Positions 16,107 to 52,804 of a stretch of DNA of 64,000 nt are shown in pieces. The DNA is taken from NCBI RefSeq assembly GCF_964355755.1, contig NC_092673.1:18731001-18795000 (forward strand), in the 5' to 3' direction. Made by a program: the position numbers and the translations under genes. Every line of letters starts with the position of its first letter. The first letter of the stretch is position 1. Below the pieces are notes generated by a model that worked only from the letters and a program-made list of their open reading frames with translations, searched no databases and had not been told where the DNA came from. Origin of the DNA: Antedon mediterranea. Taxonomy: Eukaryota; Echinodermata; Crinoidea; Comatulida; Antedonidae.

Positions 16107-16150
16107 ATGGACCAGGGATTGGAGGAATATTCAGACATGAACATACAAGG
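16107..16150 (+). CDS. Large gene, exon 1 (start codon)
   Basis: ATG at 16107 in context gacgATGG, followed by 14 codons (MDQGLEEYSDMNIQ...) and donor GTAAGT at 16151, phase 2. The next coding exon at 18349 begins with the single base needed. Short and without a recognised domain. Confidence 0.55.
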
Positions 16151-16601
16151 GTAAGTTATGGTTACCAATACCACCAACTCTTTATGAATTTATTGTTAGT
16201 GACTGTGTGTGTTTTTATTTCATTACAGTAATTTGACGTTTTAAGCTCTTTGTCATTTGAAGGTTACAAATAAACAGTACAGTTAAACAACACAAGACAC
16301 ATAAATTTTGCTTGATCTAATCCAGCAGAAGTATGTAGTGTGAGAACAAAGATTACAATTTTCATCTTCATTCAGTAACACCAGCATACAGATGCAAGTT
16401 AATTGTCGTAGCCTTTAATGTTTCTGCTGTCTGATGGGATTATATTTTATACATGCTGTATGTATGAAACACATACAGTAATATTGAAATATAAAATGTT
16501 TCTGCTGGAATAGCTTGTCAGTATGTATACACTTTCACCAGTTTTATGTTCAACAGTCTGATAATACTGAAGTTTCCATTCCATTTGTATATACAGTAAG
16601 C

Positions 16602-16973
16602 GGTTCAGGGAAGATTCGGCCCTGAGACGATTCGGCCCGGGACTATTCGGCCCACTTTTAGTGGGACGTTTCGGCCCACTTTGGGCCAAAACGTAGACCA
16701 AATTCATATTCATTTTTTGGGGTATTTATCAAGTTTTTAAAGGTGTTTAACAATCCGTATTTTATTAATATTGACAATGTTGATATAATATATATAATAA
16801 ATTACTAAAAAAACGTAATTTTATATTCAATTTATTACTTCGAAAACCTTGTTTATTTCGTGCATTCGCCAAGCGGCCAACAGAGGGCGTAACTTGTTTA
16901 CATCGTTCACATGACTAAAAAATGATCATTTTCCCAGGGCCGAATAGTCTCAGGGCCGAATCGTCCCGTTACC
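16602..16973. mobile_element. MITE with TTCGGCCC-type terminal inverted repeats and 8-bp TSD
   Basis: Both ends carry inverted GATTCGGCCCTGAGAC..ATTCGGCCC blocks (about 40 bp, imperfect), flanked by the 8-bp direct repeat CAGTAAGC (16594-16601 and 16974-16981). An 8-bp duplication fits hAT-like (or P-like) DNA transposons. No transposase is encoded. It lies in intron 1. An antisense open frame across 16447-16713 merely runs into it. Confidence 0.8.
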
Positions 16974-17141
16974 CAGTAAGCAATTGATTATTATCAGTAT
17001 TGTCCTTGTACCACACAGTGACTGTGACACAAACAATTGGTATTTTTTGCATTGCATTGTTTTGAATACAACACACATATTAGGAATTAATGATGATTCG
17101 CACTAGTTTCTTTTATTTCCTGAAAATTATTTGTAAAGCTC

Positions 17142-17237
17142 TGTCTACACCACCATATATGGACATGATGAGGTCATATCACTACCCTATTTGAGAACAT
17201 AACAATTTCTTTGTCAAGTTTGATATTGTAGACAGAG
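17142..17237. mobile_element. Short palindromic MITE (AGCTCTGTCTACAC ends), copy 1
   Basis: Inverted repeats AGCTCTGTCTACA at the left and TGTAGACAGAGCT at the right enclose a short core with TGATGAGGTCATATCACTAC. A related copy is at about 32489-32632. Confidence 0.7.
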
Positions 17238-17265
17238 CTGTGGTTTGTCTAACAAAAGCTATGCA

Positions 17266-17384
17266 TTTAATAACCTCAGGCTACAGAGTTGGAGATATGA
17301 ACATTTAATAACCTCAGGCTACAGAGTTGGAGATATGAACATTTAATAACCTCAGGCTACAGAGTTGGAGATATGAACATTTAA
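17266..17384. repeat. 38-bp tandem repeat, three copies
   Basis: Three nearly perfect copies of a unit containing ATAACCTCAGGCTACAGAG and TTGGAGATATGAACATTTA, in intron 1. The perfect identity suggests recent slippage. Confidence 0.9.
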
Positions 17385-18348: not shown

Positions 18349-18442
18349 GAACAAATTAGAAGAAGCTTTGCACAGGAATGATTTGCAAACAGTTAAACAC
18401 ATTTGTAGAACACAGCCAGATCTTGTGAAATCTATCAATGAG
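18349..18442 (+). CDS. Large gene, exon 2: start of the ankyrin domain
   Basis: Acceptor tttaacag ends at 18348; donor GTATTA follows 18442. It encodes NKLEEALHRNDLQTVKHICR and then TQPDLVKSINE, the typical 'A-x-x-x-N-D-L-x-x-V-K' capping helix pair of an ankyrin array, in phase 0 with the next exon. Confidence 0.75.
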
Positions 18443-18620
18443 GTATTAAAAATATATTTTCATAATATTAACAAAAAGAAATTCTTTTCATTGAAATTTA
18501 AAATTGTTTACTACATTATTTAGCTGTAATTTTTGCTGCTGTTTATATTGACAGAAAACCAATTTCACATAATGTCTGTTGTCAGTATTTATAAACTATA
18601 TTATTTTGATTCCTTTCCAG

Positions 18621-18728
18621 GATGGGAACACTCCACTACATGTATATCTGAGTAAAGTAATTCCTACCTTAGATATACTTACTTGTCTTTTAAATCATAA
18701 TGTGTCTGCAGCAACATTGCAAAATAAG
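18621..18728 (+). CDS. Ankyrin exon 1 of 10
   Basis: 108 bases, 36 codons, phase 0 at both ends (tttccag | ... aataag | gtaatc). One ankyrin repeat: DGNTPLHVYLSK, then VIPTLDILTCLLNHNVSA and ATLQNK. The TPLH signature and LLxHN-x-S-A match the ankyrin consensus. Nearly identical to exon 4 of the array. Confidence 0.85.
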
Positions 18729-18927
18729 GTAATCCACATGGATTTGCTAGTGTAGTAGGCTACCATTCTCTGCAGTAAACCATTCTATTTATCAATAATG
18801 ACAAATATGATTTTTTACTACATTATTTAGCTGTAATTTTTGCTGCTGTTTATATTGACAGAAAACCAATTTCACATAATGTATGTTGTCAGTATTTATA
18901 AACTTTATTATTTTTATTCCTTTCCAG

Positions 18928-19035
18928 GATGGGAACACTCCATTACATGTATATCTTAGTAAAGTAAATCCTACCTTAGATATACTTACTTGTCTTTTAA
19001 ATCATAATGCGTCTGCAGCAACATTGCAAAATAAG
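18928..19035 (+). CDS. Ankyrin exon 2 of 10
   Basis: Same splice borders and length, 307 bases after exon 1. Differs by VNPT and NHNASA. Matches exon 5 of the array. Confidence 0.85.
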
Positions 19036-19234
19036 GTAATCCACAGGGATTTGCTAGTGTAGTAGGCTACCATTCTCTGCAGTAAACCATTCTATTTATC
19101 AATAATGACAAATATGATTTTTTACTACATTATTTAGCTGTAATTTTTGCGGTTGTTTATATTGACAGAAAACCAATTTCACATAATGTCTGTTGTCAGT
19201 ATTTATAAACTTTATTATTTTTATTCCTTTCCAG

Positions 19235-19342
19235 GATGGGAACACTCCATTACATGTATATCTGAGTAAAGTAAATCCTACCTTAGATATACTTACTTGT
19301 CTTTTAAATCATAATGCATCTGCACCAACATTGCAAAATAAG
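19235..19342 (+). CDS. Ankyrin exon 3 of 10
   Basis: 108 bases, phase 0-0. Carries NASAPTLQNK. Matches exon 6; the following intron is four bases longer, the same as after exon 6. Confidence 0.85.
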
Positions 19343-19545
19343 GTAATCCACAGGGATTTGCTAGTGTAGTAGGCAACCATTCTCTGCTGTAAACCATTCT
19401 ATTTGTTTATCAATAATGACAAATATCATTTTTTTCTACATTATTTAGCTGTAATTTTGGCTGCTGTTTATATTGACAGAAAACCAATTTCACATAATGT
19501 CTGTTGTCAGTATTTATAAACTTTATTATTTTGATTCCTTTCCAG

Positions 19546-19653
19546 GATGGGAACACTCCACTACATGTATATCTGAGTAAAGTAATTCCTACCTTAGATA
19601 TACTTACTTGTCTTTTAAATCATAATGTGTCTGCAGCAACATTGCAAAATAAG
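19546..19653 (+). CDS. Ankyrin exon 4 of 10
   Basis: Copy of exon 1 displaced by 925 bases (VIPT, NVSA, and the same ttgattcctttccag acceptor). Confidence 0.85.
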
Positions 19654-19852
19654 GTAATCCACATGGATTTGCTAGTGTAGTAGGCTACCATTCTCTGCAG
19701 TAAACCATTCTATTTATCAATAATGACAAATATGATTTTTTACTACATTATTTAGCTGTAATTTTTGCTGCTGTTTATATTGACAGAAAACCAATTTCAC
19801 ATAATGTATGTTGTCAGTATTTATAAACTTTATTATTTTTATTCCTTTCCAG

Positions 19853-19960
19853 GATGGGAACACTCCATTACATGTATATCTTAGTAAAGTAAATCCTACC
19901 TTAGATATACTTACTTGTCTTTTAAATCATAATGCGTCTGCAGCAACATTGCAAAATAAG
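19853..19960 (+). CDS. Ankyrin exon 5 of 10
   Basis: Copy of exon 2 displaced by 925 bases. Confidence 0.85.
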
Positions 19961-20159
19961 GTAATCCACAGGGATTTGCTAGTGTAGTAGGCTACCATTC
20001 TCTGCAGTAAACCATTCTATTTATCAATAATGACAAATATGATTTTTTACTACATTATTTAGCTGTAATTTTTGCGGTTGTTTATATTGACAGAAAACCA
20101 ATTTCACATAATGTCTGTTGTCAGTATTTATAAACTTTATTATTTTTATTCCTTTCCAG

Positions 20160-20267
20160 GATGGGAACACTCCATTACATGTATATCTGAGTAAAGTAAA
20201 TCCTACCTTAGATATACTTACTTGTCTTTTAAATCATAATGCATCTGCACCAACATTGCAAAATAAG
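20160..20267 (+). CDS. Ankyrin exon 6 of 10
   Basis: Copy of exon 3 displaced by 925 bases (NASAPTLQNK). Confidence 0.85.
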
Positions 20268-20470
20268 GTAATCCACAGGGATTTGCTAGTGTAGTAGGCA
20301 ACCATTCTCTGCTGTAAACCATTCTATTTGTTTATCAATAATGACAAATATCATTTTTTTCTACATTATTTAGCTGTAATTTTGGCTGCTGTTTATATTG
20401 ACAGAAAACCAATTTCACATAATGTCTGTTGTCAGTATTTATAAACTTTATTATTTTTATTCCTTTCCAG

Positions 20471-20578
20471 GATGGGAACACTCCATTACATGTATATCTG
20501 AGTAAAGTAAATCCTACCTTAGATATACTTACTTGTCTTTTAAATCATAATGTGTCTGCAGCAACATTGCAAAATAAG
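20471..20578 (+). CDS. Ankyrin exon 7 of 10
   Basis: 925 bases after exon 4 but a mixture of types: VNPT as in exon 2, NVSA as in exon 1. Suggests gene conversion or unequal exchange in the array. Confidence 0.85.
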
Positions 20579-20777
20579 GTAATCCACATGGATTTGCTAG
20601 TGTAGTAGGCTACCATTCTCTGCAGTAAACCATTCTATTTATCAATAATGACAAATATGATTTTTTACTACATTATTTAGCTGTAATTTTGGCTGCTGTT
20701 TATATTGACAGAAAACCAATTTCACATAATGTATGTTGTCAGTATTTATAAACTTTATTATTTTTATTCCTTTCCAG

Positions 20778-20885
20778 GATGGGAACACTCCATTACATGT
20801 ATATCTGAGTAAAGTAAATCCTACCTTAGATATAGTGACTTGTCTTTTAAAGCATAATGTATCTGCAGCAACATTGCAAAATAAG
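20778..20885 (+). CDS. Ankyrin exon 8 of 10
   Basis: 108 bases, phase 0-0. Carries DIVTCLLKHNVSA, diverging from exons 1-7 at the second helix. Confidence 0.85.
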
Positions 20886-21084
20886 GTAATCCACAGGGAT
20901 TTGCTAGTGTAATAGGCTACCATTCTCTGCAGTAAACCATTCTATTTATCAATAATGACAAATATGATTTTTTACTACATTATTTAGCTGTAATTATTGC
21001 TGTTTTTTATATTTACAGATAAACAATTTCACATAATGTCTGTTGTCAGTATTTATAAACTTTATTATTTTTATTCCTTTCCAG

Positions 21085-21192
21085 GATGGGGACACTCCAT
21101 TACATGTACATCTGAGTAAAGTAAATCCTACCTTAGATATACTTACTTGTCTTTTAAATCATAATGCGTCTGCAGCAACATTGCAAAATAAG
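21085..21192 (+). CDS. Ankyrin exon 9 of 10
   Basis: 108 bases, phase 0-0. Carries DGDTPLHVHLSK and NHNASA. Confidence 0.85.
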
Positions 21193-21391
21193 GTAATCCA
21201 CAGGGATTTGCTAGTGTAGTAGGCTACCATTCTCTGCAGTAAACCATTCTATTTATCAATAATGACAAATATGATTTTTTACTACATTATTTAGCTGTAA
21301 TTTTTGCTGTTGTTTATATTGACAGAAAACCAATTTCACATAATGTCTGTTGTCAGTATTTATAAACTTTATTATTTTTATTCCTTTCCAG

Positions 21392-21499
21392 GATGGGGAC
21401 ACTCCATTACATGAGTATCTAAGTACAGTAAATCCTACCTTAGATATAGTGACTTGTCTCTTAAAGCATAATGGATCTGCAGTAACATTGCAAAATAAG
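21392..21499 (+). CDS. Ankyrin exon 10 of 10
   Basis: 108 bases, phase 0-0. The most diverged copy: DGDTPLHEYLSTVNPT, DIVTCLLKHNGSAVT. Followed by one more intron copy with no exon after it. Confidence 0.85.
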
Positions 21500-21809
21500 G
21501 TAATCCACAGGTATTACCTAGTGTAGTAAGCAACCATTCTCTGCAGTAAACCATTCTATTTGTTTATCAATAAGAACAAATAGGATTTTTACCACATTAT
21601 TTAGCTGTAATTATTGCTGTTTTTTATATTTACAGATAAACAATTTCACATAATGTCTGTTGTCAGTATTTATAAACTTCATGATTATGATTATTAGTAT
21701 ATTGGAAATTGACTATACTATAGTTATGTGCTTAAACCATTTGAAACAAACTAAATTGCTCAGAAAGCAAATGACCCCCAGCCAAAAGTAATCTTTGTTC
21801 CCGCTTTTG

Positions 21810-25295: not shown

Positions 25296-25380
25296 GATGG
25301 AAATACACCTGTCTCTCTTTTAGAAAGTAACAGGCTGATAAGTGACCAAAGAAAAACTGAAATTTTAAACTTCTTAGAAG
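25296..25380 (+). CDS. Large gene: last ankyrin repeat exon
   Basis: Acceptor ttttttaatag, donor GTAAGT. Encodes DGNTPVSLLESN then RLISDQRKTEILNFLE, an ankyrin repeat (DGNTP..LLES) with a capping helix. Starts in phase 0 and ends in phase 1, switching to the phase-1 exons downstream. Confidence 0.8.
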
Positions 25381-29738: not shown

Positions 29739-29807
29739 ATTTACCAAGTCCTGTTAGTGATCAATTTCAAACACAATTTGAGAAACTAAAGGTTCAAAAA
29801 CAGAATG
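29739..29807 (+). CDS. Large gene: linker exon (SPVSDQFQTQ type)
   Basis: Acceptor ggtaatgtttcag, donor GTGAGT, phase 1-1, 69 bases. Encodes DLPSPVSDQFQTQFEKLKV and then QKQN. Its SP-V-x-(D/E)-x-FQTQ core recurs in the exons at 48868, 49186 and 50977, so the gene has reused this module. Confidence 0.7.
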
Positions 29808-31179: not shown

Positions 31180-31703
31180 ATCAAATTAAGGAAGTGTTTG
31201 TGGGATCTGCTGGTGATGTGCTTCATCTTGAGGAGGCAGACATCAAGTTGGAGATACATTCTGAAGCAATTAAAGTGGAGAAAGTTAAAGTATCACTAGA
31301 AAATTGTTTTGAGGAAACAGACATGCCTGTACTTCATCCTCATGAAACCATTATATCACCTATTGTTAAATGTGGACCAGAAGGCACCAGCTTCAACAAG
31401 CCCATTTCATTGTCATTTCCACACGATGCTGTAAATGAAGAGAATTGGGAATTTAGTCTACTTGTTAAAGATCGCATTGAAGATGAATGGAAACAAATTG
31501 AAAAGGATAAAAAGGACATACAGTTTACTTTTAAAAACGGTCGATGTTGTATAACATTAAATCATTTCAGTTTTTATGCACTAAAGGGTCATGTAAGAAA
31601 TTTCTTTGGTAAGAAAAGAATGTTGTTAGGAGTTTTTGGAAAGATGCTTGCAAATGATGAATATCAACTTCAAACAAGACTTTTTAAGCCGTCAGATAAA
31701 CAG
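31180..31703 (+). CDS. Large gene: ZU5 domain exon with HFS motif
   Basis: Acceptor tattctgcag, donor GTAATT, phase 1 to 0, 524 bases. The first ~45 codons are a lead-in, then the ZU5 core: ETIISPIVKCGPEGTSFNKP is the ZU5 hallmark (S-P-x-V-x-C-G-P-x-G-x-x-F-x-x-P), followed by ISLSFPHDAV. Near its end comes CITLNHFSFYALKG, with H-F-S at 31563-31571. In PIDD an HFS motif at this place is the self-cleavage site, and NLRP1 and CARD8 FIIND domains also cut before a Ser. The last ~40 codons begin the UPA domain. Self-cleavage here is inferred. Confidence 0.85.
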
Positions 31704-32175: not shown

Positions 32176-32310
32176 AGGATAATAGAAGAGCACAAAGAAA
32201 TCAGTGAGAAGCCTTTAATAACACCAGTAGATATACTATCTATGTATAAGGACATGAACATTACTGTAGCAGTATCAGAACAGGAATGGAAAGTTCATGA
32301 GAAAAAAAAA
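32176..32310 (+). CDS. Large gene: UPA domain, first part
   Basis: Acceptor tatatatttcag, donor GTAGGA after AAA, phase 0-0, 45 codons. Encodes RIIEEHKEIS, KPLITPVDILSMYKDMNITV and EQEWKVHEKKK. Joined to the next exon it gives EWKVHEKKKTVTAEYLWRGT, the usual UPA ending before its last strands. Without splicing the frame reads on for 35 codons to TGA at 32413. Confidence 0.75.
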
Positions 32311-32488
32311 GTAGGAATATCAATATTTTTAGTAGATTGGCATGGTAAAGAATTATGCATTAAACATGTTTTTGCAGGGATACCACATAACTTGAGAATT
32401 CATAATGATAATTGATCAATAAATAAAATCTCTATTGCTATCCATATATTTAGCATACTGGATCACGATACTGAGTTAAGATCTTTAA

Positions 32489-32873: not shown

Positions 32874-33015
32874 ACTGTCACTGCTGAATACCTATGGCGT
32901 GGAACACCATTGAAGAATTTTCTTTTAAAAAGAGGTAATTCATCAGCAAAAGTCCTAAAGGCAACAGTATCACTGTCACAAGAGTCAAATGATATTGATC
33001 CAGTGGAAGTGAATT
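32874..33015 (+). CDS. Large gene: UPA domain, last part
   Basis: Acceptor ttttttcccttag, donor GTAAGT, phase 0 to 1. Encodes TVTAEYLWRGTPLKNFLLKR, then ATVSLSQES and DPVEVN. LWRG and the final T-x-S-L-S strand match UPA ends in PIDD, UNC5 and ankyrins. Confidence 0.8.
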
Positions 33016-33459: not shown

Positions 33460-33489
33460 GTAATGTTGAGACATCAGGACCAAATCCAG
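33460..33489 (+). CDS. Large gene: micro-exon linker
   Basis: 30 bases, phase 1-1, acceptor tttgttatag, donor GTATGT. Adds NVETSGPNP, a flexible linker between UPA and the tandem DED. Confidence 0.55.
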
Positions 33490-34451: not shown

Positions 34452-34967
34452 AAACAAGAAATCCATTGGAAGACAAGTTCAACAAGTTAAATTATGATCT
34501 CAGTGAAGTATTTATGAAGTATCAGAAAAGATATTATTTTTTGAGATGTTGTCTCTCTGAGCACATTGCATTACAGGTCCTTGGCAATAGAGATTGCATA
34601 GCAAATGATTATTTCAATGAACTCTCTGAGAAAGGATATATCAAACCAACTGATGTTGATCTTTTGCTAAATATTGCAGAATTATCAGAAATTCAGGAAG
34701 CTAGAAATGTTGTAGCACAGTATATGAGAGACAACAATGTTAAAAATACTGATAGACATAAGTTGTCCCCATATAGGAAAAGATTGTGCAAGGCATTGAG
34801 AGAGTTTAACCCAAATGAAATCAATAAGATTAATGCTTTTTATCAATTGGAATTATCAACCATTTGGGATGTCGCATTTGAGTTAGAGAGGAAAAACAAA
34901 TTAGTGAATAAATCACAGAGAAAAGCGTTTGCTAACATTCTTGGACCAACTCCTAAGAAGATACTTG
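34452..34967 (+). CDS. Large gene: tandem death effector domain exon
   Basis: Acceptor tgtttgttgcag, donor GTATGT, phase 1-1, 172 codons in one exon. Domain 1 (about residues 10-90) has CIANDYFNELSEKGYIKPTD followed by VDLLLNIAEL. Domain 2 (about 105-165) has YRKRLCKALREFNPNEI and STIWDVAFELERKNKLVNKS. Both follow the six-helix DED pattern (helix 5 'x-x-F-x-x-L-x-x-K-G-x-I', then 'x-x-L-L'). Tandem DEDs in caspase-8 and FLIP build filaments. No clear E/D-RxDL triad is seen, so the fold call rests on pattern only; another death fold is possible. Confidence 0.65.
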
Positions 34968-35976: not shown

Positions 35977-36021
35977 ATGAGCAAGACGATACAGCGACTA
36001 CTACACAAGCCAGTGAACAAG
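35977..36021 (+). CDS. Large gene: linker exon (DEQDDTATTTQASEQ)
   Basis: 45 bases, phase 1-1, acceptor tctcttcacag, donor GTATGA. Acidic and Thr-rich linker after the tandem DED. Near-identical copy at 41973; a more distant relative at 48200. Confidence 0.65.
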
Positions 36022-38663: not shown

Positions 38664-38800
38664 TTTATTTTATGTCTGATGTTTGTCCTGACAACGTCTC
38701 ATGTCCTGACCAATTGACTGATGCTCTATTCTCAGAACGTCTATGATGATCATACATCTAACATTGATCCTGATCAGAATTTTTTTCATAGCAACATTAA

Positions 38801-39990: not shown

Positions 39991-40008
39991 TATATCAAAT
40001 TATTATCC

Positions 40009-40720
40009 TAGTGATTTTACCCACAAAATTAATACGAATTCAGACAATATTTTTTCATCCATCCACTTTAATGCAAGAAGTCTATTAAAAAATATTGATC
40101 CAATCGTGAGTCTTCTCTACATTTTTCTTTCGATGTGAATGCTGTTAGTAAAACATGGTTTTTAAAATTTGATAATCCCTTGGTTAAAATCCCTGGATTT
40201 TCTTTTGTCTCGAATCACAGGTCTTTTAAAGGAGGCGACGGTGTCGCCTTGTATATTTGCGATGGCCTTCAATTTTAAATAAGAGATGATCTATTTTTTT
40301 ACCCCCTAGTTTGCGAATCAATATTTGTTGAAATCATCCACCCTAATACAAAAAATATTATTAAAAGAAGTATCTATAGAGCCCCATTAAATGATCCGCT
40401 TGTGTTTATTGATCAACTTGATTCAATCTTAGCCAAATTATCCAATGAAAACAAAATAAATTATATTCTTGGTGACTTCAATATTGATATATTAAAAAAT
40501 GAATCAAATAATGATGCTTGTCAATTTGTTAACTCTCTGTTTAGTAATTATTTTCTCCCCCTTATTCATAGACCATCCAGAATGACCAAGTCCTCTTTCT
40601 CACTGATTGACAATATTATAACCATGGAGGTTTTATACCTCCATGTTATACCTAATAAATTTGATTTCCCTAGTATAAGTGGACTATTATATAGTGATAT
40701 TTCGAACGATCTTTTTAATC
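40009..40720 (+). pseudogene. Fragment of a CR1/Jockey-like LINE endonuclease
   Basis: Translations give IHFNARSLLKNIDPIVSLL, GDGVALYICDGLQF, then (from 40402) ILGDFNIDILKNES and FLPLIHRPSRMTKSSFSLID: the APE endonuclease N-terminus through GDFN and the Asp-Asn region. Frameshifts and a stop lie near 40130 and 40278. It runs directly into duplicated DED-exon sequence at about 40720, so the last codons of this frame (PIPKKILG) come from the host gene. Confidence 0.8.
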
Positions 40721-41064
40721 CAATTCCTAAAAAAATACTTGGTATGTATTTATGCAAACATGCTCTAAAAAAAGTGTTGAAATAATTTACTGGTACTTAG
40801 CTGTTAACACGATCACATTAAGTTGAAGACAATTTTCCCTCCCTCCCGCCCAATAACAGAGTAGGTGTTGTTAGTAATATTAGTTTTTGTGAGAATATTT
40901 TGTCTTTATTTTACGCTGACATTCTGTATTGATAAGAAAATACTGAAAGTACAGTACATTTTCTCACATCAGATCAGACCATATTTTTTAGTATGTGGCT
41001 TCCTTGAATTGAAACTTCAAAACTATTGCAGAGAAATTCATTTTTAATGCTAATTTATTTTAAA

Positions 41065-41848
41065 CAAGGCCAACAGCCATTAAGTCGCGTGCTACAATGC
41101 ATAGTGATACCGGACCGACATACAGACCGATAAACCGACAGACAGACCGACAGACAGACAGACAGACCGACCGACATAGTGAACTATACTGACCGAAATT
41201 ACTGAACATGTTTAAAAATGTTGAAATGTTTAAAAACATTTATATTTTTTTAATTTACACGTGCGTAGCCTGTCACTTTCGACGTGCTCGTATAACGTAA
41301 TTTCGAGTTGAAAAGTAAGTCAAGAAAACAGAAATCAAGCAAAAAGAGTGCGTAATAACATTTAACACGCAGTGCGCGCGCAAAAATATGCGCACTCATG
41401 GCAATTTTGTAAACGCTTAAAATTGCCTGAAATGTACTCTTATTTCATCGAAAATAAATTTTGAAAATTTTAAGCGCGCGTACGCATGCGTTACATGCGC
41501 TACGCACGTAATTGTATTGCCATATGATGATTTATGCCCTGAAATTTATGAGTACCAAATTTTATTTAATTGTGATTCATGGTTGTGAAGATATGATTAC
41601 AAACGTGATTTCGTTAAATCGTGCGTAGACCGCGTAATTTTTTATTGCGCACCGTGAAAACATAACCACATTGATTCCTGGCCATAAGGAATATACTGTG
41701 AAAAATTGACCTAGCTAGATTAAACTGATATCAAGATAAGGTCAGAAAGGGATAAAACGCATAGTGATACCGGACCGACAGACAGACAGACCGACAGACA
41801 GACCGACCGACCGACATAGTGAACTATAGAGTCGCTTCCACGCGACTA
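41065..41848. mobile_element. Non-autonomous element with GACAGACC microsatellites and terminal hairpin
   Basis: Inserted in copy B; copy A at about 35230 shows the uninterrupted site (aaac|aacagac). It contains two (CAGA/CCGA)n tracts introduced by CATAGTGATACCGGACCGAC and ends with the hairpin AGTCGCttccacGCGACT (41830-41847). The 3' hairpin and internal microsatellites recall non-autonomous Helentron/Helitron elements. Class uncertain. Confidence 0.65.
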
Positions 41849-41972
41849 AAAACAGACAAAATAGCTTCTTGTATTATTAATGTCACCAAGTTGATTTAAT
41901 GACAGATGATACCACACACACTGACATGAAATTATTTTACAATATTAAAAAAAAATCTTATCCTCTTCACAG

Positions 41973-42017
41973 ATGAGCAAGTTGATACAGCGACTACTAC
42001 ACAAGCCAGTGAACAAG
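41973..42017 (+). CDS. Large gene: linker exon (DEQVDTATTTQASEQ)
   Basis: Duplicate of the exon at 35977 with two codon changes. Intact splice sites (ctcttcacag, GTATGA) and phase 1-1, so it should be spliced in. Confidence 0.65.
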
Positions 42018-42174
42018 GTATGATCCATTGATGATACAGTCAAGTGTATAAAGACTAATTTTAATCTACATTTTGTTGAACCAAAATTGAACCGTTCACA
42101 CCTGTTAAAAAACCAAGCATTATCTATATATTAAAGCATTATTATTGTTATTAAACTATCTGTTTTTTTTTAAC

Positions 42175-43578
42175 TCTTTCACTGCGTATACAGTACTCGG
42201 TATTACCGGGTATGAGAAAAATTATTATTTATTTGTATTTGCCTATAATATATAACACCCTCTATTGTTTTTTGATAAACTTGAAGATATTTGCAATTCA
42301 TTAAAACTAATTTTTTAGCACAACATGCGCCCTCTATAGTTGTTAATATTATCTTGAAATATCACATATTATTATTATTATAAACTTGTAATTAAAATTA
42401 TTTTGACCTTGGAAAGTTATATGATTAGCTATAATGGCACAAAAATATCATCCACTTACCAATTTTACCCACCCCATAGGGCAATATCATGTTCATTCTG
42501 CAAAAAGAATTCTGAATTAGTCGTTAGTGTTTCTGTAACAGCGATTTTTTAGAAAAATTTCATTTTTCTATGATTTTGACCAAAAATGTTATGCCAAATT
42601 TTTTGTAAAACGATGAAAATAACTAGATTTGAACTTGTCACTTTGACGAGTTCGGGTTATCCGCTCAAACGTAACATGTACCACATACATTATATGAACG
42701 CCGACAATTATTATGCCATCCTATGACATGAATGAAATATGTTTGGCAAGAAAGAAAGGTCATTGCGTATCATTTTTAATATTAATTGGAAATATATGTT
42801 TCCATTTATAGCCCTAAATTCGCTGGGTTGCATATAATATTCAATGGATTGAGTCACACTAATCGACCAAGCGCCATATTGGTTGTGTACATGTGAAACT
42901 GGTATACTGTAGGTCTAATATAGATGTTTGTTACGTCCTTTATTTTGGTGAAATAAGACCAACAAGGGAAAATAAGTGAGAAGGATCAGGGATGGCCTAC
43001 TAAAATTGCTCTTTGTCCGGATACGGAATTTCAGCTTCTTTGATGTAAAAACGATAAACTAAACAGCATTGATGCACGTAGATTTAAAATTTAAAAAGAA
43101 AAGATTAGAATGTTAGGTACGGTCATTTTATATTGACTATTAATGGCAAATATAATATTTTCAGCGTTAATAATGATTACTTTTCATATACCTAAGCACC
43201 ACCTCGGTTAGGGTTAGATTTGTTGTTATTTCTCATTCAGACAGAGAACACATTATTCTGTTCATCATGGCCTGAAGCATGATGATCTTAATTGATTATA
43301 CTGTATATTGATGGTCCATGGTATATCTGATCCACTGAATCCAATTGAATAAATAGAGGCCCTATATGGTTATTGGCTCAACACTACAGATAAGTTTAGC
43401 TTCTAATAAAATAAGTTTTGTCCAAATTTTAAATTGATGTGCTTAGTAATCGTATTTTAAATAATGTTTTAAGATTATGAATTGTGATTTTGACATGTAA
43501 GTTAAATTTTATTATCATTATTTTTTTTTGTCGCGTTAAACTAATAATGGGTTGTTCAGGAAGTTACTTTTATAATTT
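42175..43578. other. Intron stretch with no recognised element
   Basis: 42175-42620 recurs with deletions at 46985-47210 (CTCGGTATTACCGGGTATGA, CAATTCATTAAAACTAATTT). Beyond it the sequence is AT-rich and I see nothing. Confidence 0.6.
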
Positions 43579-44250
43579 ACCTCCGCCAAGGAGGTATATG
43601 TAATCGGTAGCGTGTGTTTGTTTTTTTGTTAGCAGGATTACTCAAAAAGTAATTACAAAATCTTTACCAAAATCGATATACAGATAGATATGTGGTCAAG
43701 GACCATTCCATTAAATGTTGGGACCATTTGTGACCATGGTCCCAATTCTGGACCACTTTTTAGTATACTTTTTTAGACCTGTTAGTGTTAAAGATAGGAC
43801 AGAATTTTTCAAAAGCCGGCGACCAGTCTTAAAGTAACAAGTAAACTGAAATTGCATTTTCTCAAGAACTACTTGTCCAAAAAACTTTATTTTTGTATAA
43901 AAGGCAAGAGTTATATTTTGTGATTTGTAATTTTAAAACATAATTTGATTTAATGTGCACGTTTTTTGTTGCGAGTAGTTTAAAAAACCTATTTCTTTTC
44001 AAATTCACTCGTTTGATTTTCGCGTTGCTGTTCTATTGTTAGTCAACTGAAGCTATTGTTAATTGAAAGGCTTGTTACATAACCATTACACCAAACTTGC
44101 ATACACATGCTTGTAGTGCAATTAGCCTAAATCACAAACAGCATTAAGACACACACAAATATATAAATATTATTTTTTTTGCTGGAGAAATCTTATGTAT
44201 GAGAATTTTACAGTAGGCGGAGGTATGCACTCTCGGAGTGGCTTTCTAGT
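43579..44250 (+). mobile_element. Non-autonomous Helentron/Helitron2-like element
   Basis: The left end ACCTCCGCCAAGGAGGT is echoed near the right end by GGCGGAGGT (asymmetric inverted repeat). It is followed by a small hairpin (CACTCtcgGAGTG) and the end CTTTCTAGT. This arrangement is typical of Helentron-type non-autonomous elements. No protein coded. Confidence 0.6.
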
Positions 44251-44832
44251 TTTCATTGTATTAAACATTTATATTGATATGTTCTGTGTTTAAAACACTA
44301 TTGTTTGTTAGGCAGGATAGTCAGATGCTCACATCACTATGACACTTGTGAATAGATAGCTAGCTTGTCTTGACAAGTTAGTGAAACAGTGTGCCGTGGT
44401 GATGTGAGATTCCGTTTTTGGTCTTTTTTCTGTTGTCTTGGTCAATTTATTCGGTTTTCTTAGGCTATTTCGTGGTTTATTTTACATCAACATTTTTATT
44501 TTCAGACTTGTGCTAAACAGCGCATAGAGACTATTTGTATTTTGCGCTATATAAATTTAAAACCATTAAAAGTAAATAATTGTTCAAAAACATTTGTCAT
44601 TTTTAATTGTAATGTATTTCTATATTATTACAATATGCATGTAATTGGAATTAGCCATTGGTTCATTATACAAGAGAGACATAAATTCAATGGACCAAAT
44701 AAAAAGGTTCAGACTACTGTAGACTGGAAATAGAATGTTGGTGATCATTAATTATCCCAAATTACTCCACTAATAATACTTTAGCTAATGCAAATGATTA
44801 TCAACAGCCATCTCGTCATTTATCGTTTACAG

Positions 44833-45537
44833 ATTCCTTATTGTGCTCCATACGTGCTCAAACGGTTTATGATGAGGAAAACATCAATTATTTCCGAATT
44901 TGTTGTTTGCTTTTTGAGGAAGGTACAAAGGCAATGAGATGGTTTTTCCTCACCCATGCATCTGATGGTGGCCTACAACCGGAACAAGTACATGAATTTT
45001 TAAAGAAAAAAAAACCTGAACTGAAAAAGCTAAACAAAACACAAAAGAATTTGTTATTCCCATCAGAAGGAAAAGCTGATATAGAGGATTTTGATATGAC
45101 TTTATTAAACATTTTGATATGTAATCTTTGCGTATGTAATGATGATGAATCAAAAACTGTTAATGACCTCAGAATCTTCAGAAATGATCAGGCCCACAAG
45201 AAAGACTATCGCATTTATAGTCAGCATGATTTTGACCGTGAATGGAGTCGTTTATCAGGTATCCTGGACAAATTTGGAGTCAAGCAAAATGTAATTGATA
45301 GGTATGCTATTGCTACCGATAGTGACATACTGCAGTTTCTGGAAGATCGAAAAGATCTTAAAGAGCTGAAAGAAAGTTTTAAAGACATGGAAAAGAAACT
45401 GGACCAGCACTGTGAAAGTACTTCATTTGATTTGAAAGAACTACTACAGAAACAAGAAGAAACAAGCCAGAAACTAACTGATTTAAACCTAGTGATGATG
45501 GGAAAGGAAGAAAGGAAGGAACATACACTTCCCAGTG
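44833..45537 (+). CDS. Large gene: DZIP3-like HEPN domain exon
   Basis: Acceptor tcgtttacag, donor GTTAGT, phase 1-1, 235 codons in one exon. It starts DSLLCSIRAQTVYDEENINY, then FRICCLLFEEGTKAMRWFF, a typical DZIP3-type HEPN opening. LNKTQKNLLFP and FDMTLLNILICNLC follow, and then the HEPN core LRIFRNDQAHKKDYRI. The RNDQAH stretch (45180-45197, about residue 116) is the R-N-x3-H motif of HEPN ribonucleases. The C-terminal ~70 residues, with ELKESFKDMEKKLDQHC, look coiled-coil. DZIP3-type HEPN domains are common in invertebrate NLR-like and DED/CARD proteins. RNase activity is inferred. Confidence 0.85.
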
Positions 45538-45764
45538 GTTAGTATTATTCTGTCGTAGTTGGGCGTAATATTGTGGAAATTCAATTATTTTAAATATTTA
45601 TTGAATAATTATGTTTAATAATCATAATTATTTCTATTTAAATCATGGATTTACAGTGTGTAAATTTAAGGCATTTTATGAACAAATTAGTTGATCCGCA
45701 GTTTTATAAGTACAAATCTAAAAGGTATGGAGGGCTCATTTGAGAAAACAAATTTGAAAATCCG

Positions 45765-46862
45765 TCAACATGGTCCTTGCGGCTTTAAAATTACCACCTG
45801 AACCGTACCCTTCCAATCCTCCCCCTCTTTAATTGTGTCAATTAAAATGTTTCTGGTCCTGGTGCTTTCCTTCGTTTCATGTTTTTGACTGCATGCTGCA
45901 CCTCCCAATATGTGATGTATGCAGTTTCTTCTGAGTCTATGGATAATTGAAGGTCTACTGACGGCTGCTTTGATAGAGTTCTTCATAAAATTCTTCAATC
46001 CTCCTCAAAATTATATCTTGATCTGTGATTTCTGTCTATTTTTTTTTTATCAAGTAATGATGTTATTTTCTGCTTTCCACTTGCAAGTTTCTGCTTTGTT
46101 TTCTTTAAACTTCTATTGTTTGTTATTGTTTTTTTAATTTTAAGAGTGTTGTATTTTCTTATGTCTTGTCGGAGTTTCTTTCGTATTGTCTTGCATGTTT
46201 CTGTATATTCAACATTTTGGAATCCAATTCCATCTCTCTTCATATTCCTCCTTTTCTCCATTAGCCACCTGGTGCTATCTGAGAGTTTGGACTCTTGCAT
46301 TTTCTTTTCTTTCCCTGCTGTTTTTGTAAAGCTCTCATGTACTATGTCGATGATTTTGTCATTGCATTCGTCAAGGTCGGAGACATCTTCTACTTCCAGT
46401 CTTTGAAAGTGGTTTTGTAGTTAGTTGAAATTCATGCTTTCTGGCTTCCAAATTGATCATTCCGGGCTTTCTGTATTTTGCTATTTTCATTCTTTCTAGT
46501 CTTGTATCTACCTTCACTTTGCACCTAAGCATACGGTGGTCACTGCCAGTGTTTAATTTGTTGAATATGGTAACATCTTGAATTATCTTTGGCTTATTAG
46601 TCAAGATAAGGTCAATTTCATTTTTGGTGTTACCGTCTGGGCTTCTCCAAGTCCATCTTCTGGATATTTTCTTCTTGAAGAAGGTGTTCATAATTTTTAG
46701 TTTGTTTCTGGAAGCCAAATCGATAAGCATTTCTCCTCTGTCATTTCTGTGACCTGATCCAAAGTTTCCAATCACCTCTTCCTCCCCATCTTGCTTGATT
46801 CCTACTTTAGCATTGAAATCCCCTATTACTGGGTTAAAGACAAGATTATTCCCTATTACTAG
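45765..46862 (-). pseudogene. RTE-type LINE fragment, reverse orientation
   Basis: The minus strand encodes the endonuclease end (GDFNAKVG near 46830; NTFFKKKISRRWTWRSPDG; GSDHRMLRC), the linker (46300-45995) and the region before the reverse transcriptase up to NILIDTIKEGED. Its last ~190 bases match 27000-27187, so it belongs to the same RTE family. Frames are broken. Confidence 0.85.
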
Positions 46863-46869
46863 GTTAAAG

Positions 46870-48199
46870 ACATGATACAGACAAGCATATAAATACTAAT
46901 TTACATTTTGTTGAACCAAAATTGAACCGTTCACCCCTGTTAAAGAACCAAGCATTATTATTGTTATTAAACTATCTGTTTTTTTTTAACTCTTTCACTG
47001 CGTATACAGTACTCGGTATTACCGGGTATGAGAAAAATTATTATTTATTTGTATTTGCCTATAATATATAGCACCCTCTATAAACTTGAAGATATTTGCA
47101 ATTCATTAAAACTAATTTTTTAGCACAACATGCGCTCTCTATTTCATTTTTCTACGATTTTGACCAAAAATGTTATGCCTAATTTTTTATAAAACGATAA
47201 AAATAATTCTAATTTGTTTGATATTTTTATTCGTTACACATATCTTCATCAATATCCAGTGGGAAAACCATATTCTATAAAAATTATAGAAAAAATAGTT
47301 TTTATCATGAATTGATAAAAAAACAGGAAATCCAAAATATATGTAATGATGTCATTAACATGCAAATTAGCTTCTTTTTTTTTTACTTCCAACCATAGAC
47401 CAACCTTTTAAAATAATTACAAAATTATGTCATTTAGTATTTTTTTGCAAATTTCTTAAAACAATTTCAATGAAATAAATGTTTGTGTATTTTAAAGGAC
47501 AGGTACGGGCACAACATTTCTATTGATCATACATTCCAATAATCATCTATCTATAGTTTCCCCTATGTTTCATAATTTTTGGATTTTATTTGTGTTACAC
47601 GAGCTTGTTGAAAATAAGCACTTTCTTATCAGTGGGGGGGGGGATAGTTCAAATTACACAGTAAAATCTGTATTCTTTTGTACACAAATTGTGTAAATAG
47701 AGAGGCATTTTAAAAAGCTATGAAAACTAAACGGTGTGGTAAAAAATGTTATCAGATGACTAAATATAGGTAATATAACTTGAATTTTAGATTTCTGGTA
47801 TTTTTATTCAACTTCAGATTTTTGTTTTCATGCTATAGCAAAAATTATCCACCGTATATCCACCATCTTTTTTCACCTTCTAGGGAGTCACCAGACATGT
47901 TATTGCATTAGGTTAAACTACTGAAAAAAAATTCTTCCTGGTTTTTATGGCAGAATATTGCCAAATTTTGTATTTGACCATATAAAGGAAAATTCATGTT
48001 TTTTCGTCTTGATTCTTGTTACAAATATTTGATTTATGTACAATTAACCATCTGCCACAATTTAAATTCCCATCTTATTAAAATAATACTAATGACAATG
48101 GCAGTAAAATAAGAAATAATATTGATTATACATACTTGGATAAAATCATGCATAATTGTATTATTTCACAAGATTCCAAAAAAAACTACTTTTTCACAG
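46870..48199. other. Intron stretch; starts with a third copy of duplication 1 sequence
   Basis: 46870-47210 matches 42030-42620 with internal deletions; the linker exon expected before it was lost where the RTE fragment joins. The remainder is AT-rich, with a poly-G run at 47634-47643. I see nothing else. Confidence 0.6.
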
Positions 48200-48262
48200 A
48201 TGTGCAAGATGGTTCAGTGACCTCTGCATTACCACAGTCTGACATCCAAGGCAGTCAACAAG
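48200..48262 (+). CDS. Large gene: linker exon (DVQDGSVTSALPQSDIQGSQ)
   Basis: 63 bases, phase 1-1, acceptor tttttcacag, donor GTAGGA. A distant relative of exons 35977 and 41973 (shared TTCACAG|ATG-GCAAG start and a Q-x-S-x-Q-Q/E-Q end). Confidence 0.6.
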
Positions 48263-48424
48263 GTAGGATCCACTGGTTAATTCCAGAGGTTAATCATCTA
48301 AGTGGTTACATTTTAAAATAAAACTTAATAGACATATTATAATAATAACTGTAGCACATTTTGAGTTATTCAAACTGTATACATTTTAGCTGAAAATGTA
48401 TAGTTATGTTACTCTCTGCCACCA

Positions 48425-48781
48425 TGTAACGGTGTCGTGTCGAGGGCCAAGACAATAACGATGGCACAAAATTATTCAATGTACAAAATACACTATTTAT
48501 TCAATCAAAAGTAAGATATATATAAAACAATGTGACAATGTAGTGATTCTGACTGATGTTATAGTCTCAAGAATCAATACCCAAACTAACTAACTTAACT
48601 ACAAAACATATATTTATATTAAGGGGACAAAAGTATGACTAATTAAATGGTACCACATCCTGATTGACTTTCCTTGGAATACCCTCCTCAGGAATGTAGT
48701 GTTCCAAGTTAAGTAGGCATCGGGGAGAGTAAGGGGTGAATAGCCTGTGTGACTAATAGGGTTTGGTCCCACCATGTTACA
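48425..48781 (-). mobile_element. Possible solo LTR
   Basis: On the minus strand: TGTAAC at the start, GTTACA at the end, a TATA-like TAATATAAATATATG and GAATAAATAG near the end, about 357 bp. No clear target-site duplication was found (ACCATGT(A/T)AC recurs at both ends but overlaps the element), so this is tentative. Confidence 0.35.
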
Positions 48782-48867
48782 ATGTATAACTCATAAAAAA
48801 TCAACAGCTTTGTCATTTAAATGTGTAATGTATAAATAACTGTCTTTTCTGTATTTTTTTTAAACAG

Positions 48868-48984
48868 AATTAGTAACAAAACAATTAGATTCAGATTCAC
48901 CAGCTACTGTTAATGAGGAATTTCAAACCCAAAAAAAGAAATTGATGATTGAGGAACAGGAAAGAAAACTTGAAGCAGAGAGTG
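48868..48984 (+). CDS. Large gene: linker / coiled-coil exon
   Basis: 117 bases, phase 1-1, acceptor ttttttttaaacag, donor GTGAGT. Encodes ELVTKQLDSDSPATVNEEFQ followed by a Lys/Glu-rich helix (KKKLMIEEQERKLEAES). Same module as exons 29739, 49186 and 50977. Confidence 0.65.
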
Positions 48985-49185
48985 GTGAGTTAAGGATCAT
49001 AAATGAATTTACTTTTTATTTTATTTCATCACCACACAAGTCAAGTCAGTTACAAAGTTGAACAATAGAAAATGATGAATAGACATTTATTTAAACATAT
49101 AAAACTCATTCAAAATATCCTATGTCTTAAGCTGGCCTTTAATATACTGTACTGTTCATACACATTATAGTTGTCGTTATAACAG

Positions 49186-49281
49186 AAGTGACGAAGGAAT
49201 ATCCATCAGATTCACCAGGTACTGTTAATGAGGAATCTCATACACAATTGGAACAGGAAATTAAACCTAAACCAGAAACTG
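49186..49281 (+). CDS. Large gene: linker exon (SPGTVNEESHTQ type)
   Basis: 96 bases, phase 1-1, acceptor gttataacag, donor GTGAGT. Encodes EVTKEYPSDSPGTVNEESHT then QLEQEIKPKPET. Its upstream intron (TATGTCTTAAGCTGGCCTTT) is repeated before exon 50977. Confidence 0.65.
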
Positions 49282-49499
49282 GTGAGTTAAGTCTCATAGA
49301 ATAATTTGTATATTATTATATGGTTAATTTGGCCAGTTGTTGTTGCACGCCCTTGTACACTCACTCCCGTATTCTTAAAGCAAACTTTGGTCGTAGTTCG
49401 AAGTTCGACTTGAAAAATTCCTAGTTCGAGCTATTACTTCAAATTCAATTCATAAAAGAAGTAGTCAAAGTTTCGGTATTTCGGTAGAATCTTTGAATC

Positions 49500-50890
49500 G
49501 TTTCTAACGACCTGGATCATGGAGAATATTGTTAATGATATCGATAATAAACAGTACGGAAGTCGCAAGAACTCGTCTACCACGCATTACCTTGTTGACC
49601 TTATTAACACTATCTTATCTGACATTGATTCAGGTGGAAAGTTTGTGAATCTATGTGCCATAGATTTCACCAAGGCTTTTGATCGTGTGGATCACACGAT
49701 TCTGATTAGTAAATTAATAAATATTGGGGTTCGTCCGTCTATAATTCCAGTTATTAGTAGCTTCTTAACCAATCGAAATATTAACACCAAAATTTGTCAA
49801 TGTGTTTCGTCCACCGTAGGCATCACGTGTGGTGTCCCCCAAGGGACTAAGTTGGGTCCCATCCTTTATTTAGTGCTTGTCAATGATGTCGCCCAAGATA
49901 CTCCTAAGAGGTGGAAATATGTGGTTGACTTAACCATCGGGGAAGTTGTTAATTATAGATGGGGAAATGATCAAAAAATGCAAACTATCCTTAACAATGT
50001 TGACACTTGGTGTTCTAGCAACAGCATGCTCCCCCACAACCTAGTAAATGTCATATTATGAGAGTGTCCTTTTTGCAGGGCCACACACCGCAACCAATTT
50101 TTACACTTAATGACCATGTCATCGAAGTGGTTGAGTTTTTAAAATTACTAAGGGTTGTAATACAATGTGATCTTAAATGGGACATTCAAGTTAATGAATG
50201 TGTTTCTAAAGCATCTAAACAACTTTTTACCCTTTCCATTCTTAGGAAAGCTTTGGCCCCAGCTAACGACCTGTTAACTGTTTTTACTACGTACATACGT
50301 CCAGTTTTGGAATATGCGTGTTCCTTGTGGCATAGCTCATTAACCAATATCCAATGTACTAGAATTGAAAGGGTACAAAAGAGAGCTCTAAGATGTATTT
50401 ACGGTGCTAATTACATCAGTTATGAAAATGCTTTATCCATGTCTGGATTATGTTCCCTTGGAGCCAGAAGAGATAACTTGATGATGAAATTTGGGAAGGG
50501 GATACTACTCTCTAAAGTCTATCGTGATATGCTTCCCCTTATCATAACCGCAGTCGCAATTTGAGAAATTTTAATTTGTTGTGTCCAACGCTCTACCATC
50601 CCTAACATTATTGATAGAATGAATGAAGCTTCTAAAACTAAAACTTTGTAGGTTTATAACATTAATAATAATTACCGCATGTTTTGGTTTTTCTGGGTCT
50701 TTTGGCATTTTAAATTTTAAATATTTTTAACGGCTTTTTAATGATCTTATTTTCTGTGTACTTGTATATATTATATTGTTGTTAGAGTCTTTTAAATTTT
50801 TTACTTTGTACGTTGTTTGCAGAATTTTTCAGCCGTTGACTGCCTTCTGTTTGTACTATTTATGTGTTTTTTATGAATAAATACCTATAT
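49500..50890 (+). pseudogene. 5'-truncated CR1/Jockey-like LINE (reverse transcriptase part)
   Basis: Two frames, 49519-50061 and 50058-50564. The first has QYGSRKNSSTTHYLVDLI, CAIDFTKAFDRVDHTI and GVPQGTKLGPILY; the second covers the thumb and C-terminal end (VLEYACSLWHSSLTNIQ, ERVQKRALRCIYG). The YxDD box has decayed to YVVDLT, so the enzyme is dead. It ends near TGAATAAATACC. Inserted between two copies of the linker-exon module. Confidence 0.88.
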
Positions 50891-50976
50891 ATATCTTATG
50901 TCTTAAGCTGGCCTTTAATATACTGTTCAACATATACTAACAATAACTGTCTTTTCTGGATGTTTTTATTGACCAG

Positions 50977-51063
50977 AAGTGACATCGGATTCATCAGATA
51001 CTCTTAGTGATGAATTTCAAACACAAGTAGTGGAACAGGAAACTAAACCTGAACCAGAGAGTG
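50977..51063 (+). CDS. Large gene: linker exon (SDTLSDEFQTQ type)
   Basis: 87 bases, phase 1-1, acceptor tattgaccag, donor GTGAGT. Encodes EVTSDSSDTLSDEFQTQ then VVEQETKPEPES. Clear duplicate of 49186. Confidence 0.65.
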
Positions 51064-51420
51064 GTGAGTGTCATAAAATATTAGTTGTGTTATTATATGG
51101 TTAAACTAACTTTAAATGTGATGTTATAGAATGGATTTTAGCTACATTTTTTTTTTATTTCAACATTTATAAAAAAAAGAATGTCTTTAAACAGAATTAG
51201 AAAAAAATACTAAATTCATACATTTAAACGATTGATAAGGTAAATGACTTATTTAACTAATCTTTAAAACAACATGTCTTTTATTATTAGTCAAGAATAA
51301 AAGCTGATACACTGAACAATATCTGCATAAATACTGTCATATTTATACATAAGTTGCTGTGACACTTACAGGTCACCGTACTTTGATCACACCAACAAAA
51401 CATCCCATTATGGTCGGCAA

Positions 51421-52804
51421 TGTATTATCAACAAACTTAAAAATAAGAGATAGTTCTCTATCCAGTGTAAATAGAACAGTTTATATTTCATCAAAGAACA
51501 TATTGTTATTGTTAATCTTATTTTGATATGCTTGCTCTATAAATTCAACAACAGATTAATTATGATTGGTCAAAGCTCTCTGTGAAGCTGTCAACATCTT
51601 TGAAAATAGGCTTCTGGGCTCAACTTACTAAGTATTTGCTGCCCCATATATCTGGGAAAATTGGCCGTTGGTAGAGACAAAATTTTAAATTTACTTTGTT
51701 ATTTATAAAGTCGCAAATTAGCATGCAACATACAAATACATTGCAAAATAATAACAAATTGATATTAATTAATAATCAAATTAGGGTGTGTTACATTGTA
51801 TAGGTCTATGGTACAGGGCTCAGGTGGCAGGCCTTTACTTTACTTGCCAACTAATGTTTATTTTTTTCTTATATAAATTTTCTGGTTTTTTATTGTAATA
51901 ATCTAATGCTATTTTTTGTAATATATTAATAAACCATAAATCAATTAAAAAAAATGAGGTTCTGCACAGTAAATGAAGATGATAATGGATGAAAATGTAT
52001 TAGAAATTTATGTTATTGTGGTTGATTGTGTTGAGTAATGAATAATCAAATGCTGTTGCTTGTGATATTTAATTCTTAATACTAATACTCATTTCAGATC
52101 TGCAGTCGCCAGAAAATGACAGGTAAGTAGTACTGTATAATGAGTGTATCACAGTATCTATACTGTTTATTTATACTCTCCAATACCATAGAGATAGACC
52201 AACACCCTGCTAGTTAATTGTTTGCCCTGAGATGATAGTCTGGAAGGGATATTATTACTATCACTTGTGTGTCTATCAGTTCAGTTGTATACTAATAACA
52301 TAACCTGTTAATACAACCATAAAGTTCAACCATAGAAATAGTGTTGAAACAATTATACACAAAATCAAGAATAACAAACATCAAAAGAACTTTTAAACCC
52401 AACAACCAAGTTATAATAATAATGAAACAATCCTGGTTTTATATAGAATTACATTCTGCATAAGCTTAACGGAGGATGACGGACCTTTTGTCCTACCAAT
52501 ATTTTTAATTTCAGTAAGATATATGCCACACTTCCGTTTTGGCCGACAGACTCCCATATTTATACTTGTCTCCTTATGCTCCTGGTTTTATATTCTCCCG
52601 TATTACAAAGATAACTGAACTTTGATGTATATGTGTTGCTTTCTGCAATAAAATATAAAAAAAAAAGCTAAAAAAACATACAAATTTATGATATTTAAGT
52701 CATAATTTATTGATCACCTTATTGAAGGGGATTCTTTTCACATAGTCATTATGGTAACAATTGCTCCTTGCATTTCCTGATTTTGATAATAATACTGTAA
52801 AAAA
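51421..52804. repeat. Segmental duplication 2, copy B
   Basis: Counterpart of 36177-37570. Near-identical, indicating a recent event. It contains exon 52098 and leads into the long minisatellite. Confidence 0.92.
52098..52122 (+). CDS. Large gene: mini-exon (DLQSPEND), last in window
   Basis: Exact copy of exon 36853 with the same splice sites, phase 1 to 2. The gene must continue beyond the minisatellite, probably with a phase-2 exon like 38052. Confidence 0.6.

Follow-up and report, generated by a model that had tools for sequence, protein, structure and literature searches.

Ankyrins combine ankyrin repeats (ANK), ZU5 (two domains), UPA and a death fold, in that order, and RNase L joins an ankyrin sensor to a kinase-KEN part in one chain. 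Here we describe a locus of the crinoid Antedon mediterranea at which a single gene, at about 16107-51300, would encode ankyrin repeats, ZU5, UPA, a death effector domain (DED), a HEPN domain and acidic linkers on one transcript. Judged from the DNA alone, we put the probability of this reading at roughly 0.58. The gene appears to be a recent fusion between an ANK-ZU5-UPA-DED gene and a HEPN exon of the HEPN-NACHT type. The window is the whole stretch of 64,000 nucleotides analysed (C4:18731001-18795000, C4 being contig NC_092673.1), and the genome examined comprises 354 Mb in eighteen contigs.

A ZU5(2)-UPA module is on record (PMC3663501). Among proteins with ZU5-UPA, PIDD is cleaved at HF/S and CARD8 and NLRP1 at SF/S, the serine being required, and the CARD8 fragments remain associated after cleavage (PMC3210808). 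The C-terminal part of CARD8 is released upon engagement or degradation of the N-terminal part (PMC9213247). Our model resembles these three proteins in having ZU5-UPA followed by a death fold, with HF/S at the homologous place as in PIDD. It differs in that cleavage is predicted, the sensor is an ankyrin array, neither LRR nor NACHT is in the model, the death fold is a DED rather than the DD of PIDD or the CARD of CARD8 and NLRP1, and a HEPN domain is added. RNase L likewise has an ankyrin sensor and a HEPN-superfamily RNase domain in one chain (KEN entry, PMC3710099), but with a kinase-KEN part in place of ZU5-UPA-DED and a different HEPN family.

The HEPN exon is of the same family as those of the HEPN-NACHT NLRs of cnidarians and bivalves (PMC8260672, PMC9646362), and two of its three kin in this genome precede a NACHT exon; in the model, by contrast, HEPN is internal and has no start codon. 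Fusions of DED-TRADD-N, HEPN, ankyrin and UPA-ZU5 in marine invertebrates (PMC8195603) reflect the same reshuffling of modules, although the model has no TRADD-N match in the pieces scanned, and its exact order is not described in the portions of that paper covered here. Sponges likewise show a lineage-specific expansion of ZU5 proteins, with a suggested defence role (PMC3482391). To the original prediction the combination looked new. The full ANK-ZU5-UPA-DED-HEPN order was indeed not found in the literature searched, which covered these papers in part (the sponge ZU5 architectures in the supplement of PMC3482391 lay outside it and may include a close relative), but neighbouring combinations are on record, including PIDD and DED-bearing FIIND proteins (PMC3210808) and HEPN with DED-TRADD-N (PMC8195603).

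The gene model and its domains

Twenty-seven plus-strand exons join in consistent phase from 16107 to 51235 and encode 1324 amino acids, with the sole stop at the end. They comprise twenty-six joined exons (16107-51063) and a likely terminal exon (51195-51235). An alternative join of twenty-seven exons reaches 52122 and encodes 1319 amino acids with no stop. These models bear out the predicted plus-strand order of ankyrin, ZU5, UPA, DED and HEPN with stop-free joins. The predicted count of at least twenty-nine exons was not confirmed: twenty-six are supported within 16107-52122 (the first one weakly), plus the terminal exon at 51195-51235. The predicted end at 52122 is that of a 25-bp candidate that lies past the likely stop and whose acceptor scores weakly, at 4.6 bits. 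The model begins with a short ATG exon, followed by an ankyrin cap, ten repeats and a second cap; a linker then leads to ZU5, and UPA takes up two further exons. After a 10-amino-acid linker come the DED exon, two linkers of the DEQ type, HEPN, one DVQ and three FQTQ linkers, and the end exon; FQTQ, DEQ and DVQ are labels coined here from letters within the linker exons. The features are listed below, where 'the paralog' is a locus on the same strand of C4, at 18105419-18143419, 640 kb upstream of the window.

16107..16150, + strand: candidate first exon, MDQGLEEYSDMNIQ, with an ATG and a good donor (8.2 bits)
18349..18442, + strand: N-terminal ankyrin cap exon; paralogs at C4:18105419 and 18168170; splice sites 10.5/7.4 bits
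18621..21499, + strand: ten ankyrin exons of 108 bp each, phase 0-0; 307-bp tandem array (TRF); Pfam Ank_2
25296..25380, + strand: C-terminal ankyrin cap exon; 96.6 per cent amino acid identity to the paralog, splice sites kept
29739..29807, + strand: linker exon of FQTQ type, phase 1-1; resembles those at 48868, 49186 and 50977; 12-bp in-frame indel against the paralog
31180..31703, + strand: ZU5 exon with the start of UPA; Pfam ZU5 (7.3e-18) and UNC5B 3g5b
31563..31571, + strand: HF/S predicted autoproteolysis site, F587/S588 of the model; aligned with UNC5B position 677
32176..32367, + strand: UPA exon 1; covered by the UNC5B alignment; donor CAT/GTTTTT
32874..33015, + strand: UPA exon 2; phase 0 acceptor; 100 per cent amino acid identity to the paralog
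33460..33489, + strand: 30-bp linker exon; splice sites 10.4/11.0 bits; same in the paralog
34452..34967, + strand: DED exon, phase 1-1, first half DED-like; three paralogous exons have Pfam DED as top match
35977..36021, + strand: linker exon DEQ1, phase 1-1; splice sites kept in the paralog
41973..42017, + strand: linker exon DEQ2, phase 1-1; copy of DEQ1; splice sites kept in the paralog
44833..45537, + strand: HEPN_DZIP3 exon in phase 1-1 that has lost its ancestral start codon; Pfam 7.3e-11; compared with three kin in the genome
45180..45197, + strand: Rx4H motif RNDQAH, predicted HEPN RNase site from motif reading, R1072 and H1077 of the model
48200..48262, + strand: linker exon DVQ, phase 1-1; present in the paralog, splice sites kept
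48868..48984 and 49186..49281, + strand: two linker exons of FQTQ type; splice sites kept in the paralog
50977..51063, + strand: linker exon of FQTQ type; 12-bp in-frame indel against the paralog
51195..51235, + strand: likely terminal exon, ELEKNTKFIHLND-stop; 13 codons, TGA at 51233, AATAAA at 51296

The ankyrin exons are in phase 0-0, the ZU5-UPA junctions in phase 0, and the linker, DED and HEPN exons from 29739 on in phase 1-1. Because most of the latter are 1-1 and could be joined in other orders, phase continuity is weak proof of one gene, and the stop-free joins noted in the original prediction do not establish one. Fourteen phase 1-1 candidates on the plus strand (some nested) and one on the minus strand came from a splice-site scan of 16000-52500, which is circular since it was trained on the exons at issue. 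The first exon has no counterpart in the paralog region, hence the 5' end is uncertain.

The expected ankyrin array was confirmed by Pfam (Ank_2, E = 1.8e-32, above the curated cut-off), with ten near-identical repeats of thirty-six amino acids each. Within 18503-21686, a 925-bp block of three 307-bp units is repeated with 921/925 positions identical, and a 934-bp exact run lies at the same offset. The sensor array is recently amplified, and its copy number may differ among individuals.

ZU5 was also identified by Pfam (PF00791, E = 7.3e-18, above the curated cut-off). Searched against PDB sequences with phmmer, the ZU5-UPA region matched UNC5B (3g5b, E = 7.9e-8) over residues 45-241 of the 287 submitted, and this local alignment stops two residues beyond the junction of the two UPA exons. 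No UPA family is among the Pfam matches of the model, so that of the proposed ZU5-UPA pair the second member is called from UNC5B similarity through its first part. The C-terminal end of ZU5 reads ITLNHFSFYAL, containing HFS, which is retained in the paralog. The UNC5B alignment places the F of HFS over the last L of LLDQLG. This leucine becomes residue 677 if two cysteines seven apart just before this stretch are numbered 663 and 670; Cys-663/Cys-670 is the UNC5b disulphide, and Leu-677 equates with Phe-296 of CARD8 (PMC3210808). A PIDD-type HF/S motif is thus at the homologous ZU5 cleavage position, and cleavage there is predicted.

For the DED exon the evidence comes from its relatives. The exon itself has no Pfam DED match and no credible PDB match, and its predicted structure is all-helical with low confidence (pLDDT 58.1). 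Three exons elsewhere on C4, 41-43 per cent identical to it, have DED as their top Pfam match (E = 2.8e-4, 4.9e-4 and 1.4e-3; 19.3-21.5 bits against a curated PF01335 cut-off of 35.9). A second, terminal type of DED exon (window 862-1371 and two kin) also has DED as top match (E = 0.0028, 0.0063 and 0.012), and all six exons scored fall below 35.9 bits. Of the tandem DED first proposed, these relatives speak for the first domain, at scores below the cut-off; the second half of the exon found no support. The exon at 860-1374 is the terminal exon of an upstream gene, DED-like, with a phase 1 acceptor, a TGA and an AATAAA.

HEPN, also among the domains first claimed, is above its cut-off (HEPN_DZIP3, PF18738, E = 7.3e-11, 42.5 bits against 27) in an exon open across 235 codons. 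Rx4-6H is the putative RNase motif of the HEPN family (PMC3710099, PMC9646362), and in the pearl oyster Rx4H is its commonest form, with 131 proteins (PMC9646362).

The HEPN exon and its proposed junction with the DED exon

A HEPN_DZIP3 profile search of the genome found at least five places, all on C4, two of which are the window and the paralog. At two of the remaining three, L001 and L005, the same strand carries a NACHT exon further downstream (E = 5.8e-9 and 3.8e-20, respectively). No NACHT frame was noticed among the open reading frames listed for the window, where no search was aimed at NACHT. All three kin exons (L001, L002 and L005) start with ATG GCA AGT behind a homologous CAG acceptor and TTCCT. 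In the window, ATA replaces ATG and no other in-frame ATG lies ahead of the domain; the reading frame is open right from the splice acceptor. Read by eye in phase 1 from the acceptor, L005 and L002 have TCC TAA where the window has TCC TTA. The 3' end, CCCAGTG/GTTAGT, is common to the window and the two kin compared (L001 and L005). The paralog has the same letters in the start region, so the start codon was lost before the window and paralog split. The window exon looks as an internal exon should, open from its acceptor and without a start of its own, and it would have originated as the first coding exon of a HEPN-NACHT type gene, later turned into an internal phase 1-1 exon. At L002 (142-2019, minus strand), a HEPN exon is followed about 0.9 kb downstream by a terminal-type DED exon; this is a possible HEPN-DED gene, in which these modules may have been joined a second time.

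The paralog has the order FQTQ - ZU5 - UPA - DED - DEQ ... DEQ - HEPN - DVQ - FQTQ. We mapped sixteen exons to it, including a doubtful one at 52098 and leaving out the ten ankyrin exons, the first exon and the end exon. All sixteen keep AG and GT and are stop-free in the paralog. The four exon indels are all multiples of three (12, 9, 3 and 12 bp), compared to 7/40 in introns of the same blocks, and the chance of this at the intron rate is (7/40)^4, about 0.001. The 3-bp indel separates the two HEPN copies, both of which keep both splice sites. The effector halves of the two loci are nearly identical and the ankyrin halves diverged, with protein identity of about 55 per cent in the ankyrin exons, 83 per cent in ZU5, 94-100 per cent in UPA and 99 per cent in both DED and HEPN. 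Because the surrounding DNA shows the same gradient, the pattern is accounted for no less well by recent copying of the 3' half than by selection on the sensor.

The two loci differ in their copies of the terminal exon, which are 98.4-99.5 per cent identical over 190 bp. One copy, after HEPN, is present in 214 kb of the window region, while 120 kb of the paralog region contain three, one separating DED from HEPN, one behind HEPN and one in a third unit. Missing from the window is a segment of about 2.2 kb present in the paralog (C4:18125104 to about 18127302), which carries the DVQ exon, a pair of FQTQ exons and the end exon. As the third unit reads DED - DVQ - FQTQ - FQTQ - end, the window state looks derived by deletion, and with this segment absent the first terminal exon after DED in the window stands beyond HEPN. 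Loss of the linkers and the likely terminal exon would have made HEPN the next domain exon after DED. The original prediction named a stop and poly(A) site between the DED and HEPN exons as grounds for two or more separate genes; such a site is likely present in the paralog, and in the window the segment is absent. Upstream of DEQ2, a partial copy of the DED-exon end at 40720-40748 keeps its donor, a hint that another ANK-ZU5-UPA-DED copy once had the HEPN unit as its 3' part. In neither the window locus nor the paralog did an ankyrin-cap first exon turn up between DED and HEPN.

Several observations weigh against a single fused gene. The fusion is not conserved, for in the paralog a likely stop exon still separates DED from HEPN. 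Substitutions in the 3' half are equally frequent in exons (12/2060) and introns (96/15369; p = 1.0), and there is thus no sign of recent constraint. If the donor at 34967 is unused, the DED frame stops at 35009-35011, with AATAAA at 35020. The intervening introns are 5.9 kb (DEQ1-DEQ2) and 2.8 kb (DEQ2-HEPN), and in the former lies a remnant resembling an endonuclease (Pfam E = 0.012, short of the cut-off). The donor of UPA exon 1 is weak (1.5 bits), yet identical in the paralog. By eye, the HEPN frame of L001 is likewise open from the acceptor with its ATG kept, and no histidine is found at the spacing of CARD8 His-270. With nineteen AATAAA on the plus strand of 34001-52000, the one past the end exon is weak evidence for the end of the gene.

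The strongest competitor, clearly less probable than the single gene but to be taken seriously, is a working ANK-ZU5-UPA-DED gene (with linkers) beside a HEPN unit that represents the broken remains of a tandem copy's 3' part after loss of the 5' half, untranslated or rarely spliced in. In its favour are the DED-exon end with its donor at 40720-40748, which lies beside the endonuclease-like frame, the likely stop exon of the paralog and the substitution rates. Of the sixty-three ZU5 places listed, moreover, only two are near one of the five HEPN places listed, both totals being lower bounds. A decayed unit fits less well with an exon open over all its codons, splice sites kept in both copies and an in-frame indel. 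Moreover, as no family terminal exon was found between DED and HEPN in the window, no earlier end of the family type is known for a DED transcript spliced at its donor.

Rather improbable, in our view, is a separate HEPN-headed gene whose own, unseen first exon lies somewhere in 35-44.8 kb. Among the places listed, ATG opens the other three HEPN exons of the genome, and a short candidate ending at a donor at 44222 (9.3 bits) would be in phase. However, the window exon has lost the start codon that these three keep, short donor-bearing candidates are likely to arise by chance in AT-rich sequence, and it is linkers of the ZU5 family, with no NACHT frame noticed among the open reading frames listed, that follow HEPN. 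We give hardly any weight to an ordinary cytoskeletal ankyrin gene with diverged ends. The order ANK - ZU5 - UPA - death fold is that of ankyrins, but these have two ZU5 domains, and the model has one by Pfam, with one ZU5 place within the window in the genome-wide listing. ZU5 matches ankyrins 1-3 weakly (E = 0.0035 to 0.88), and HF/S, a DED, ten near-identical repeats, HEPN downstream and membership in a clustered family set the model apart from them.

The ZU5 family on C4 and neighbouring elements

A ZU5 profile search of the genome found at least sixty-three places. Among those listed, twenty-one are on C4, twenty of them within 13.4-19.7 Mb, and the family there is a clustered expansion. 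One neighbouring C4 unit combines ZU5 at 18066092 with a DED exon at 18077617 and, at 18078757, a DED exon of the terminal type. Upstream of the window, at a distance of 25-46 kb, the family is represented by nine ankyrin exons. Repeats are also present in and around the gene. A 1.86-kb repeat occurs at 36176-38015 and 51421-53267 with 96.4 per cent identity, ending in a 65-bp minisatellite that in the second copy extends for about 11 kb (52804-63996). Positions 1-802 hold a 372-bp tandem repeat with a tRNA-Asp-like sequence twice. Long open reading frames at 3568-6414 and 9564-13634 are those of a LINE (endonuclease, reverse transcriptase) and an LTR retrotransposon (reverse transcriptase, RNase H, integrase).

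A possible mechanism and its meaning

By analogy with PIDD, CARD8 and NLRP1, the protein would cleave itself constitutively at F587/S588 in ZU5, and the halves would stay together. Once its ankyrin partner is engaged or degraded, UPA-DED-HEPN would come free; its DED would polymerise, and the crowded HEPN domains would pair and cut RNA. The reading of the original prediction, in which the array senses, ZU5-UPA controls release, DED assembles and HEPN cuts RNA, fits these parts and gains the HF/S and Rx4H motifs, but of its tandem DED only one half has support. As a tentative view of the whole, this may be a self-cleaving ankyrin receptor whose freed half is a filament-forming RNase, put together very recently when loss of a stop exon joined a PIDD-like gene to a HEPN module captured from an NLR, by way of phase 1-1 cassettes.

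If the fusion is transcribed, one chain would combine ZU5-UPA autoprocessing of the inflammasome kind with a domain that cuts RNA, a logic like that of RNase L built from different parts. The locus also shows a possible route by which receptors are born, through phase-compatible exon cassettes, tandem copies and the loss of a terminal exon.

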